From the IMG/VR virus record IMGVR_UViG_3300018048_000077, positions 1 to 22,416 of that record: a DNA stretch of 22,416 nt; one strand, written 5' to 3'. The notes beneath the pieces were generated by a model. It saw nothing but the letters and a program-made list of their open reading frames with translations. It searched no databases and was not told the DNA's origin. The position numbers and the translations under genes were made by a program. The stretch is from a virus. Of this stretch, positions 409 through 20,971 are shown in pieces (the stretch's first letter is position 1; each line of letters starts with the position of its first letter).

Positions 409-597
409 ATGCCAAGACCAAGATTAATCGAGGAAGACAAGCGCGTTTACAATTTAGTTCTGGGCGAAACGATGTTTGGTGAACTGCATCAAATTGCATT
501 CGATCAGTCAAAGCAGCAAGGAAAGATGGTCAGTGTCGCACAACTGATCAGGGAAGCAATCACGAGGTATTTAGATGAAACTAACACTGGACGTTGA
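409..597 (+). CDS. Small ribbon-helix-helix (Arc/MetJ/CopG-type) protein
   Basis: This 62-residue protein matches the ribbon-helix-helix pattern. It has a basic N-terminus, a short strand (residues about 13-18, RVYNLVL), a helix (GELHQIAFDQ), a turn, and a second helix with the family-typical run VAQLIREAITRYLDE. Proteins of this fold dimerise, insert the paired strand into the DNA major groove and usually act as repressors or antirepressors. The start is supported by AAAGGG six bases upstream. The last 23 bases overlap the start of the DNA polymerase gene, so the two are probably translationally coupled. It lies beside a 12-base motif that is repeated elsewhere, and an autoregulatory role is possible but is inference. 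No specific target can be read from the sequence. Confidence 0.6.
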   Translation: MPRPRLIEEDKRVYNLVLGETMFGELHQIAFDQSKQQGKMVSVAQLIREAITRYLDETNTGR

Positions 598-2626
598 AAA
601 CACTGTCACGCGCCGTGACGGCAAGCTGCACCTAGACCCATTTGAGAAAGAGAACTCGCTGGTCATGGTGGGTATACTCACCGATCAGGGCGACGAAACA
701 ATTGTATCTTTCGATCATGCAGAGTGTTCGTCTCCCGATCAGGAGTCTTTTGACTTGGTGCAGATGCTCCTTGACGAAGCCACAGTCCTGATTGCGCACA
801 ATGCTGCGCACGATCTGGCGTGGATGTGGGAGAGCGGGTTCAAGTATGATGGTCCTGTGTTTGATACGATGCTGGTCGAGTACGTCATCCAGCGTGGCCA
901 GAAGCAGCCGCTATCTCTCGAAGCCTGTGCCGAGCGCTACGAGCTTGAGGTGCAGAAGCAAGACACGCTGAAGAAATATATGGCGGATGGGGTGAGCATC
1001 CGTGACATTCCTTACAACGAACTTTGTGATTATCTGGCCGCTGACCTTCACGCTACGCAGCAACTGGCTGACAAGCTGAACCTCTATCTAAATACGCAAG
1101 AGGGCAGTGGCCTGATGGATACGGTGCTGCTGACCAACTGCGTTTGTAAGACCCTTACACGTATCTACTGTAACGGCTTCAAAGTAGATCGTGCTGCACT
1201 TGAAGAAGTGACGGAGCAGTTCACAGCCGAGAAAGAACAGATCGAGGCAGAGCTTCAGCGTGACATCAAGGAACTGATGGGTGATACGCCCATCAATCTG
1301 AACAGCCCAGAGCAGCTATCGCAGGTTATCTTCAGTCGCAAACTCAAGGACAAGAAGACATGGCCGGATCGCTTCGATCAATTTATGCCTATCGGTTTGT
1401 TTCGGCAGACAGTCAATGCCCACACCAGCATCGTGTTCAAGACGAAGGTGCGGCAGTGTAAGGACTGTAGCGGAGCAGGGCGTAAGCGTGTCCGCAAGAA
1501 GGACGGCTCACTGGGCAAGGCAGTTCGCATCTGCCAGACATGCGAGGGTGAGGGCGTCCTGTATGACGACACACGAGATGTTGCTGGCCTGAAGTTCAAC
1601 GCCCCATCTGCCAAGTGGGTTAGTGCCAATGGCTTCGGCTGCTCGAAGGGCAACCTTGAGCATCTTGAGGGTGTTGCCCGATCTAAACAAATGAAACGAG
1701 CAGAGGCGTTCCTGTTGAAGGTCCGCCGTCTGTCTGCACTCGACAGTTATCTATCTAGTTTCTGCGGTGGCATAGCCACCTTCACCAAGCCTGACGACAT
1801 CCTTCATGTCCGGCTGGTGCAGCAGATGACATCGACAGGCCGTCTGGCAAGTCGTGAACCCAACCTTCAGAACATGCCACGCGGCGGCACATTCCCTGTG
1901 AAACGAGTCTTCGTATCACGATGGGAAGGTGGCCAGATCATGGAAGCTGACTTCGCTCAGTTGGAGTTTCGTGTGGCTGCATTTCTGAGCCAAGACGGAG
2001 TAGCAATTGAAGAAGTTTCTACTGGATTTGATGTACACTCATACACCGCTCAGGTTATTACCGATGCTGGTCAGCCTACGGATCGACAGACAGCGAAGGC
2101 GCATACATTCGCGCCGTTATATGGAGCGACGGGCTTTGGAAGAAGCCCAGCGGAAGCAGAGTACTACGAACACTTCACGCAAAAATACAAAGGCATCGCA
2201 AATTGGCATGCCCGATTGGCTACGGAAGCTCTGACAACAAAGAAGATACGCACACCATCTGGACGAGAGTTCAGCTTTCCTGACGTTGTTCGCAAGCGGG
2301 GCGGGAGCGTTAGCTACTTTACGCAGATCAAGAACTATCCCGTTCAGTCGTTTGCAACTGCTGACATCGTTCCGCTTGTACTGCTGCAACTAGAACAGGC
2401 GCTTCTAGATAGCGGCTTACGTAGCTTGATTGTAAACACTGTGCATGACTCGTTTGTTCTGGACATACACCCTGAAGAATTTGGCCAGGTTATGCGGGTA
2501 ATTAAACAAGTGTCGGATCAAATGACAGACAGAATAAACATGGCATTCAATATCGATCTCAATGTTCCGATGCTGCTCGAAGCAAAGGCTGGTCCGAACT
2601 GGCTTGAGACTGTTGACGTGGAATAA
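575..2626 (+). CDS. Family A DNA polymerase with 3'-5' exonuclease and an inserted DnaJ-type zinc-finger segment
   Basis: This is a 683-residue replicative polymerase. The proofreading domain (about 1-170) shows Exo I as LDVENT (D6, E8), Exo II as AHNAAHDLAW (D80) and Exo III as YLAADLHAT (Y153, D157). The polymerase domain (about 370-683) shows motif A MEADFAQLEFR (D459), motif B RQTAKAHTFAPLYG (R504, K508, F512, Y516) and motif C VHDS (H624, D625). F512 aligns with E. coli Pol I Phe762. Motif C has Ser where Pol I has Glu883. Between the domains, residues 295-327 carry two CxxCxGxG units (C295/C298 and C320/C323), as in the DnaJ central zinc-binding region. This insert is known from HMO-2011-type phages and its role is unknown. 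The start ATG follows GAGG (564-567) by seven bases and overlaps the upstream gene. Confidence 0.96.
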   Translation: MKLTLDVENTVTRRDGKLHLDPFEKENSLVMVGILTDQGDETIVSFDHAECSSPDQESFDLVQMLLDEATVLIAHNAAHDLAWMWESGFKYDGPVFDTMLVEYVIQRGQKQPLSLEACAERYELEVQKQDTLKKYMADGVSIRDIPYNELCDYLAADLHATQQLADKLNLYLNTQEGSGLMDTVLLTNCVCKTLTRIYCNGFKVDRAALEEVTEQFTAEKEQIEAELQRDIKELMGDTPINLNSPEQLSQVIFSRKLKDKKTWPDRFDQFMPIGLFRQTVNAHTSIVFKTKVRQCKDCSGAGRKRVRKKDGSLGKAVRICQTCEGEGVLYDDTRDVAGLKFNAPSAKWVSANGFGCSKGNLEHLEGVARSKQMKRAEAFLLKVRRLSALDSYLSSFCGGIATFTKPDDILHVRLVQQMTSTGRLASREPNLQNMPRGGTFPVKRVFVSRWEGGQIMEADFAQLEFRVAAFLSQDGVAIEEVSTGFDVHSYTAQVITDAGQPTDRQTAKAHTFAPLYGATGFGRSPAEAEYYEHFTQKYKGIANWHARLATEALTTKKIRTPSGREFSFPDVVRKRGGSVSYFTQIKNYPVQSFATADIVPLVLLQLEQALLDSGLRSLIVNTVHDSFVLDIHPEEFGQVMRVIKQVSDQMTDRINMAFNIDLNVPMLLEAKAGPNWLETVDVE

Positions 2627-2698: not shown

Positions 2699-3574
2699 AT
2701 GACGACACTGACAACAATCGACGAAAACAATTACGAAGCTATGGCTTTGATGATGGGTGTAAACCCAAACCAGAAGGCCAAAGGATCAACCCTGCCGCGT
2801 TTGCGGATTTGGAATCAGGGTGTAAAAAACAAAGACGGAAAGCGTTCCGTCGAGGTAGTGCCAGCAGGATTCTATCGTCTGGAAGACCCAGACAAAGCTA
2901 TGTACTTTGCAGAGACGGTTACCATCCGTCCGTTTCTGCAACGCTTTATGTACAAGCGTTACAATGCAGATAAGAACGATTTCACCAAGACGGTTATGCA
3001 CGAGAATCTGCAAGTCGATCTGAAAGATACGGCTGGTGGTTTCAACTGCGGTAAGCCAGCAGGTTACATCGAAGACTTCGATAGCCTGTCAGATGAGATG
3101 AAAGAGGCGATCAAGCAGATCCGCCGTGTTCGTGTCATCCTCGGTGAAGTCGAGATGAACAATCCAATCGACGAAAACGGCAACGCCGTTGAGGTCGGCA
3201 CAATGCCTTTCATCTGGGAAGTGGACAACAAGACCGCCTTCAAAACTATGGGCGAACCGTTCAACCAGTTGGGCAGGCAGCGCAAGCTTCCGATTCAACA
3301 TAAGATCACACTCGACACATCTGAGCAGGAGCTTCAGACAGGTGGCGCTTTCTTCCTACCAGTGCCATCTCTCGACCTGACGAAAGCTGTCGTGATCAAT
3401 GATGAAGATCAGAAGCGCTTCAGTGACTTCCTTGAATGGATCAAGTCGTACAACGAGTACGTCATCTCAAGCTGGACAGATAAAAGCAGTCAGAGTGCAA
3501 CAGCCGACGAAGAGAAGCTGATGTCTACCGTCTCTGCCGATGTCTTTATCGATGTTGAAGATGACGCAGCTTAA
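2699..3574 (+). CDS. Replication-module protein of unknown family, possible ssDNA-binding protein
   Basis: I do not recognise this 291-residue protein by motif. Translation from ATG 2699 gives MTTLTTIDENN. A GTG at 2687 would add four residues but has no ribosome binding site, whereas GGA sits about seven bases before 2699. The protein is soluble, mixed alpha/beta, rich in charged residues, and ends in an acidic tail (ADVFIDVEDDAA) of the kind ssDNA-binding proteins use to recruit partners. It lies between the DNA polymerase and an exonuclease-like gene, behind its own promoter. Phage T7 needs an ssDNA-binding protein (gp2.5) alongside the same set of enzymes, and no other gene here fills that role. 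That function is inference from position and tail only. A recombination or annealing protein, or a nuclease partner, is equally possible. Confidence 0.7.
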   Translation: MTTLTTIDENNYEAMALMMGVNPNQKAKGSTLPRLRIWNQGVKNKDGKRSVEVVPAGFYRLEDPDKAMYFAETVTIRPFLQRFMYKRYNADKNDFTKTVMHENLQVDLKDTAGGFNCGKPAGYIEDFDSLSDEMKEAIKQIRRVRVILGEVEMNNPIDENGNAVEVGTMPFIWEVDNKTAFKTMGEPFNQLGRQRKLPIQHKITLDTSEQELQTGGAFFLPVPSLDLTKAVVINDEDQKRFSDFLEWIKSYNEYVISSWTDKSSQSATADEEKLMSTVSADVFIDVEDDAA

Positions 3575-19553: not shown

Positions 19554-19778
19554 CTACTCCTTGCTCAGTGCGCGGTCGAGCTTGTCCTCGACTCTATGTA
19601 GAGCGTCAACTAAACGAGACATATCACCCCGCAAATCATTACGAGTCGCGTAGTCTTCCCTTGTACGTGAAAGAAGAACTTCTACTCGCTTAAGTTCTTT
19701 TGCTTGGCTTGAAAGAAAGTATGCCAAGCCGCCAATAACAAGGCCAACAAGAGTGTCTATGATCAATGCCATTTCCAT
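19554..19778 (-). CDS. One-TM coiled-coil membrane protein, possibly a spanin- or holin-like protein
   Basis: A 74-residue protein with one hydrophobic segment near the N-terminus (about residues 4-22, LIIDTLVGLVIGGLAYFL), followed by a charged helix (KELKRVEVLLSRTREDYATRNDLRGDMSRLVDALHRVEDKLDRAL) with heptad spacing of hydrophobics. This topology is like inner-membrane spanins (Rz type) and some small holins. No partner lipoprotein, endolysin or second holin lies nearby, so a lysis role is only a suggestion. An envelope-anchored assembly factor is equally possible. Its ATG shares one base with the stop of the adhesin gene, and it ends four bases before the next gene, so it is expressed with the tail genes. 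Confidence 0.65.
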   Translation of the reverse strand: MEMALIIDTLVGLVIGGLAYFLSSQAKELKRVEVLLSRTREDYATRNDLRGDMSRLVDALHRVEDKLDRALSKE

Positions 19779-19969
19779 TAAGCAGTCCCGCCTTGGACAG
19801 TTCCGTTTTGGGTCAAGGTTACATTGCTTAAACCGCGGATGTATTTTCCTGCTGCTGCACCACTAGACCCACCGCTGCCGCCAGAGCCGCCAGAACCATT
19901 GGTATGGTTGCCGTTGCCACCAGTGTTTCCTGTTGAACCAGTATTTCCTGATGAACCAGACGCACCGTA
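19778..19969 (-). repeat. 3' end of adhesin gene, paralogous to 22225-22416
   Basis: This 192-base segment encodes 63 residues (YGASGS... to ...VQGGTA), of which 56 match the segment at 22225-22416 in the same order without gaps. Codon choice differs at many positions, so the two are not a recent exact duplication. Confidence 0.9.
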
Positions 19970-20971
19970 GCCACCTCCAGCACCACCACTTCCGCCAGTT
20001 CCGCCCGTGCCACCAGAACCGGCATTCGTGCCACCTCCAGAGCCACCAGAACCGCCACTACCAGAAGAGCCTGACGTAGCAGATTGGCCATAACCTTGAC
20101 CTACACCACCAGAACCACCTGAACCGCCAGAGCCACCAGCGCCGCCATTATAATAGGTGTAATTTGTGATGAATTGATCTCTGTAAAGATCGTAGTAGTA
20201 ATCGCCACCACCAGCATTTAACCAAACCGAAAAGCCAGAATTGTAACGATAACCACCACTATCCCACGGGACGGCTTGACCGCCTTGCGTGCCTGTTCTC
20301 AAACCAGAGCCTTGCCATCTAATTTGGTAGTGACCGTAATAAATATTGCGGTAGTAATGGTGCTGCCCCGTTGTGCCGGGGGATGATCTGTTACCTAAAG
20401 AAGTAGAGCTGGTCGATCCTTGGCCACCCGTGCCGCCAGAGCCACCCGATCCTCCAGAGCCACCGCCTCCGCCACCAGCACGGATTGTACCATTGTTGAT
20501 GAGAGTACAGGCAACGTCAGCTTGGAAAGCATCGCCGCCTGCGCTACCAGCAGCACCGCCAGCGCCACTCAATGTGCCGTTGTTGGTAATCGTCAATCCA
20601 CCAGCCAAACCACTGTCTATCTGCAGTGCTTCTTGTGATGTACTGGTTGCACCCAGTTCTACGCCGCTGTTTACTACGATCTCTTTTGGGTAGTTAACAC
20701 CGTAGTCTGATCCAAACACGGATGACGCATCCTGGTTGGTTGCGCCACTGCTATAGGTTTTACGAAAGCCTTTTGCAGTATCACGAAAGTCAACAAAGCG
20801 AATAGCACCAGAGGTAGGAACAGAGGCAGCAAGATTAGTAGAACCATTGTTGCCTGCTTTTGCGAGGACATGGCTACCACCCCTGTACATTTCAGACATC
20901 TTAATCGTTCCAGAGCGTCCCCACTCTGTACGAATTTCTGACATCCTTACTGTTCCACTGCCTATAGGCAT
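19778..20971 (-). CDS. Glycine-rich tail adhesin (receptor-binding protein candidate)
   Basis: A 397-residue protein. Residues 1-32 hold a doubled MSE motif (GSGTVRMSEI...GTIKMSEMYRGG) that is frequent at the start of marine phage tail-fibre and adhesin proteins. Residues 127-170 repeat an NNGT(L/I).(G)GGG pattern. Residues 165-185, 275-330 and 325-375 are dense GGSGGSGG runs, and between them lies an aromatic patch (HHYYRNIYYGHYQIRW, and YYYDLYRDQF...YTYYN; about 204-275). Glycine-rich runs with exposed aromatic loops match the design of gp38-type adhesins, in which polyglycine II helices display receptor-contact loops. This would sit at the tail-fibre tip. The last 63 residues are 89% identical to the end of a second gene at 22225-22416. 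It starts directly after the fibre gene's stop (TAAATG). Confidence 0.82.
   Translation of the reverse strand: MPIGSGTVRMSEIRTEWGRSGTIKMSEMYRGGSHVLAKAGNNGSTNLAASVPTSGAIRFVDFRDTAKGFRKTYSSGATNQDASSVFGSDYGVNYPKEIVVNSGVELGATSTSQEALQIDSGLAGGLTITNNGTLSGAGGAAGSAGGDAFQADVACTLINNGTIRAGGGGGGSGGSGGSGGTGGQGSTSSTSLGNRSSPGTTGQHHYYRNIYYGHYQIRWQGSGLRTGTQGGQAVPWDSGGYRYNSGFSVWLNAGGGDYYYDLYRDQFITNYTYYNGGAGGSGGSGGSGGVGQGYGQSATSGSSGSGGSGGSGGGTNAGSGGTGGTGGSGGAGGGYGASGSSGNTGSTGNTGGNGNHTNGSGGSGGSGGSSGAAAGKYIRGLSNVTLTQNGTVQGGTA

Follow-up and report, generated by a model that had tools for sequence, protein, structure and literature searches.

The window, the whole 22,416-nucleotide stretch of viral DNA analyzed here, encodes a family A DNA polymerase of the HMO-2011 type, and we consider it somewhat better than an even chance that a single-zinc, DnaJ-like knuckle at the tip of its thumb props a basic hairpin that grips the duplex, giving the enzyme built-in processivity. 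The insert that carries the knuckle is real and has already been described; the refinements presented here, beyond the known lineage mark, are its placement in the thumb, the exchange of Cys for His at one ligand, the existence of relatives that lack the insert, and the conservation of a basic hairpin. The zinc site and the thumb location are well supported, whereas the function is inferred.

The polymerase gene and its HMO-2011-type relatives

The features of the polymerase, in window coordinates, are as follows.

575..2626, + strand: family A DNA polymerase with 3′-5′ exonuclease, HMO-2011 type, 683 aa
725..1087, + strand: 3′-5′ exonuclease domain, residues 51-171 (Pfam PF01612, E 1.3e-10)
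1190..1279, + strand: thumb helix H, residues 206-235 (AlphaFold2 model; Klenow alignment)
1307..1333, + strand: thumb helix H1, residues 245-253, motif NLNSPEQLSQVI (model; aligned to Klenow FNLSSTKQLQTI)
1340..1633, + strand: thumb-tip insertion, ~98 residues (~256-353) (insert-less relatives; Klenow and T7 alignments)
1457..1480, + strand: first zinc knuckle, CKDCSGAG (C295, C298, G300, G302; residues 295-302) (sequence; ligand conservation)
1481..1531, + strand: basic β-hairpin between the knuckles, residues 303-319 (strands 303-307 and 313-319; net charge)
1532..1555, + strand: second zinc knuckle, CQTCEGEG (C320, C323, G327; residues 320-327) (sequence; relatives)
1646..1684, + strand: thumb helix H2, residues 358-370 (model; L364 aligned to Klenow L617)
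1688..2608, + strand: polymerase palm and fingers, residues 372-678 (Pfam PF00476, DNA_pol_A, E 1.6e-52)

An earlier note on this DNA had placed two CxxCxGxG units, C295/C298 and C320/C323, at 1457-1555. Translation of the 683-aa open reading frame showed these coordinates to be exact, with the codon of C295 at 1457-1459 and that of G327 ending at 1555, and C295 lies ~124 residues past the exonuclease match, in agreement with the ~125 given before. The pair is not a product of chance: in 200,000 shuffles of the polymerase, which contains 12 Cys and 43 Gly residues, one C..C.G.G motif arose in 0.08% of cases and two motifs in none. The Pfam family PF00684 (DnaJ_CXXCXGXG) matches residues 290-331 with an E value of 5.1e-5 and 23.9 bits, below its curated cut-off of 32.7 bits, and the fragment alone scored 29.3 bits.

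HMO-2011-type polymerases are known to contain, between their exonuclease and polymerase domains, part of a DnaJ central domain that bears two CXXCXGXG motifs (PMC6918029, 2019; PMC9038755, 2022), and this partial domain is used as a criterion for recognizing them (PMC9038755, PMC8528129). Indeed, PF00684 is already listed in the GenBank record of HMO-2011. The earlier note's description of the insert as a lineage mark of HMO-2011-type phages is borne out by the literature (PMC9038755, PMC6918029, PMC8528129) and by the HMO-2011 polymerase itself, which is 62.8% identical to the window polymerase over 100% of its length. The window polymerase shows both the family A and the 3′-5′ exonuclease matches of the type, the two motifs by which the type is recognized (residues 295-302 and 320-327; PMC9038755), and, besides full-length similarity, the gene order of the group—helicase end, polymerase, hypothetical, Cas4-like exonuclease, endonuclease I, class II RNR, and MazG—with the order of the replication module matching that of HMO-2011. 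The polymerases of HMO-2011, CRP-1/2/3, and HTVC033P belong to the same family and have the same insert in the same place with two CxxCxGxG motifs; they differ in nothing of kind, the slightly diverged hairpin reading RKRVRKKDG in the window against a consensus near VIRKVKKDG. A literature search found no paper on the insert's function.

Searching with the insert only retrieved 12 HMO-2011-type records (11 phages, HMO-2011 being present twice) and one weak match in a 636-kb uncultured phage record. The contigs that account for the bacterial-genome matches with the insert lie in marine MAGs unrelated to one another: HMO-2011-type polymerase contigs (L290, L291, L292, L297, and L298) occur in MAGs with the labels Flavobacteriales, Neomarinimicrobiota, and Euryarchaeota, and two polymerase contigs are common to a Flavobacteriales MAG and a Neomarinimicrobiota MAG. 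Given this distribution, the insert-bearing contigs are probably misbinned phage contigs.

Some further features were observed in the window and in related loci. A small ribbon-helix-helix-like ORF of 62 aa (409-597, + strand; Pfam RHH_1, E 0.008, below cut-off) sits between the helicase and the polymerase and overlaps the polymerase start, whereas in HMO-2011 the helicase directly abuts the polymerase. The structural-gene half of the window contains a predicted 397-aa protein (19778-20971, − strand) with long glycine/serine-rich repeats. Phages MEP402, ICP2_2013_A_Haiti, and vB_Af_QDWS535 (L085, L086, and L090) encode the related polymerase in two separate ORFs.

Location of the insert in the thumb

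Comparison with insert-less relatives helped to locate the insertion. The whole insertion is absent from the polymerase of Stenotrophomonas phage StenR_269 (L084, 35% identity) and from an IMG/VR relative (L171), in both of which the H1 segment runs directly into the H2 segment, and StenR_269 aligns well with Klenow around H1-H2. By alignment, the Klenow loop at ~595-605 corresponds to residues ~256-353 of the window polymerase. The thioredoxin-binding insert of T7 DNA polymerase precedes the segment FNPSSRD, which aligns with Klenow FNLSSTK and hence with NLNSPEQ in the window polymerase; the T7 H1 segment was placed by local alignment, as global alignment could not place it owing to T7's own insert.

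The AlphaFold2 model, built from a 60-sequence alignment (pLDDT 91.5, pTM 0.83), contains helices at 206-235 (H), 245-253 (H1), 358-370 (H2), and 374-403, named H, H1, and H2 from the Klenow alignment, and insert strands at 288-294, 303-307, 313-319, and 328-336. Compared as a whole, the model gave matches to Pol I large fragments (VIA Z ~33); since Pol I chains filled the whole-model Foldseek and VIA lists, which were uninformative on the insert, the insert was also modelled alone.

Alignment and model together place the insert in the thumb tip between H1 and H2, in the loop that follows the one holding the thioredoxin-binding insert of T7. The earlier note's contrast with T7, whose insert it put "elsewhere (thumb)", therefore needs correcting: the window polymerase likewise carries its insert within the thumb, only on the other side of H1. 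On the evidence of StenR_269, L171, and the model, the insert lies inside the polymerase fold, and its reading as a separate domain between the exonuclease and the polymerase is rejected. In the StenR_269 locus (L084, 2526-2792 and 2992-4836), whose polymerase has no zinc insert, a thioredoxin-domain protein is encoded two genes upstream of the polymerase.

Conservation of the probable zinc ligands

Conservation was assessed in 235 distinct full-length polymerases from 287 loci, 232 of which carry the insert. All four ligands are kept in every insert-bearing polymerase (232/232), as CCCC in 223 and as CCHC in nine, and the spacing between C298 and C320 is 21 residues in 231 of the 232, so that the Cys/His ligands show the conservation and the constant spacing expected of a structural zinc site. 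The four positions, whose loss in close homologues had been named as grounds for giving up the claim, are thus retained as ligands in close and distant members of the group alike. G300, G302, and G311 are essentially invariant. Only 66% have Gly at 325, where the second motif has its first Gly, and about one-third of the members would therefore escape a search with the strict motif. CRP-738 (L088) is the only member seen with a longer inter-knuckle hairpin, of 33 residues.

On a tree built without columns 255-355, that is, with the insert left out, residue 320 shows at least four switches from Cys to His or back, and no other residue occurs there; the switches are confined to a sub-clade of 27 tips. 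Because the only exchange is between Cys and His, which removes one CxxC dithiol, it suggests metal binding rather than dithiol chemistry, with the qualification that recombination could have moved the state.

Fold of the module and its look-alikes

Structure prediction of the insert, which the earlier note had proposed as a check, gave a confident module from AlphaFold2 modelling without metal or DNA: the 57 residues modelled alone form a four-strand unit (pLDDT 86), and at the level of the fold a structure at odds with a zinc site was not seen. The top rows of the Foldseek search with this unit were zinc modules of DnaJA2, BSD2, anti-TRAP, and UvrA, all of them weak (E ≥0.1), and VIA gave Z scores of 3 to 4.3 against these four and lambda Q. 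With the insert profile, the best PDB match was the E. coli DnaJ zinc domain (1exk, E 5.6e-5), with whose two middle repeats the insert aligns, followed at distance by lambdoid Q (E 0.07) and anti-TRAP (E 0.11); in PHROGs, Q-like antiterminators were matched for 83 of 83 members.

The central zinc domain of DnaJ (type I Hsp40) thus resembles the insert in its CxxCxGxG knuckles and hairpin. However, DnaJ has four CXXCXGXG repeats and two zinc ions, whereas the insert has two repeats and what appears to be one zinc site, in a different protein in which Pfam matched no J-domain and the HPD motif is absent; with PF00684 below its cut-off as well, membership of the polymerase in the DnaJ family was rejected. 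Anti-TRAP, which carries two motifs (PMC2896485), lambdoid Q, and the C-terminal module of UvrA (CEACQGDG...CDQC in the E. coli sequence) are also zinc modules of the CxxCxGxG kind, but they are different proteins in different contexts, and none is a polymerase thumb insertion. By sequence and model, the module is best described as a single-zinc CxxCxGxG knuckle. Several proteins that bind DNA, RNA, or other proteins contain a knuckle of this kind, and the common motif does not fix its function. Of the original description as a "DnaJ-type zinc-finger pair", the DnaJ-type cysteine pair holds, and the finger pair is better read as one zinc site made from two knuckles.

The basic hairpin and a proposed role in processivity

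Among the 666 17-residue windows of the polymerase, residues 303-319 have the highest mean net charge (mean +4.9, minimum +3 in 232 sequences), and the conserved QNMPRGG motif marks the start of the next separate peak, at 433-449. Almost every sequence has basic residues at 306, 308, and 309.

In the proposed mechanism, the two DnaJ-like knuckles (C295, C298, C/H320, and C323) would build one tetrahedral zinc site, and this structural zinc would fix the four-strand module so that its central hairpin, 303-319, presents the conserved Lys/Arg residues. In family A polymerases the tip of the thumb runs alongside the freshly synthesized duplex, and the hairpin would therefore most likely contact DNA phosphates of the duplex behind the active site. 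Such a grip would slow dissociation and confer intrinsic processivity, the module doing the job of the thioredoxin-bound loop next door in T7 and of the thumb insert of Pol θ. Of the roles suggested in the earlier note, binding to DNA agrees best with these observations, and partnership with a host chaperone agrees least.

Other thumb insertions provide precedents. Thumb insertions serve processivity in the T7 and human mitochondrial polymerases (PMC7699545), and simulations of the T7 insert show its basic residues bound to the backbone of the DNA (PMC5984650). The T7 insert thus shares with the window insert its thumb location, basic residues, and suitability for processivity (PMC5984650, PMC7699545), but lies before H1 (the FNPSSRD segment) rather than after it, has no cysteine knuckles, and works with host thioredoxin. 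Insert 1 of Pol θ, residues of which contact the minor groove and matter for processive synthesis, and insertion 1 of plant organellar polymerases, which is lysine-rich, are likewise thumb insertions near DNA (PMC9962433, PMC7699545), for which no zinc motif is described; the likeness considered here is that of a thumb position close to DNA. Counting against a DNA clamp are the weakness of the insert's fold matches (Foldseek and VIA, above) and the Pol θ Insert 1 mutant T2161I, in which nucleotide affinity was changed and DNA binding was not (PMC11080051).

Alternative roles of the module

An acidic protein is an equally conceivable partner for the basic patch. The conserved gene directly downstream of the polymerase is relevant here.

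2699..3574, + strand: hypothetical protein, 291 aa, with an acidic C-terminal tail; candidate SSB

The tail is strongly acidic in 125 of 125 readable loci, with a net charge of −4 to −12 over the last 20 residues. We regard it as possible, at roughly half the likelihood that we give to the DNA grip, that the thumb module mainly docks protein, the hairpin binding a phage replication protein by its acidic C-terminal tail and coupling the polymerase to the replisome; the partner would most likely be this next-gene product or the helicase/primase. By analogy, the downstream product could be the SSB of the group, docking on the polymerase hairpin: the C-terminal tail of the T7 SSB binds the T7 thumb insert (PMC7699545), and a family A polymerase of a mobile element is predicted to bind its own SSB via the thumb tip (PMC10061031). 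However, the protein is annotated as hypothetical in those records of the group that were examined, and searches for a family or PDB chain, SSB families included, gave no convincing match. Docking and a grip on DNA are not mutually exclusive.

That the module is purely structural, stiffening a long thumb insertion with no direct partner, seems improbable. Zinc knuckles often merely hold a fold, and relatives without the insert exist, but neither the near-universal basic residues at 306, 308, and 309 nor the highest net charge in the enzyme would be expected of a purely structural loop. Recruitment of the host DnaK/DnaJ chaperone system, or action as a thiol-disulfide switch, is more improbable still and receives very little credence from us. 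The insert corresponds to the two repeats of DnaJ noted above, and these middle repeats form the zinc center tied to the DnaK interaction. The literature ties one of DnaJ's two zinc centers to DnaK and describes a weak thiol-reductase activity of DnaJ (PMC4428491), and the role of DnaJ in lambda replication has been mentioned by authors working on HMO-2011-type phages (PMC9038755). Nevertheless, Pfam matched no J-domain in the polymerase, the HPD motif is missing from it, the conserved surface is basic, and the change from Cys to His at 320 breaks a CxxC dithiol yet keeps a metal ligand, which disfavors a redox dithiol role.

Implications for HMO-2011-type phages

In the literature, HMO-2011-type phages figure as a marine group that is both dominant and broadly distributed, and the insert serves to recognize them. 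The Cys/His variants, and the large number of members whose second motif is degenerate, show that a strict criterion of two CXXCXGXG motifs would miss true members. With the insert placed at the thumb tip, what had been an unexplained "DnaJ domain" becomes the basis of a concrete hypothesis on processivity, and the refinements make the question of the insert's function testable. More tentatively, and with less than even confidence, the zinc-held basic clamp at the thumb tip may be one more answer to the processivity problem that arose independently among family A replicative polymerases, standing in for the thioredoxin that T7 borrows; an unrecognized phage SSB encoded by the next gene might control the clamp through its acidic tail.
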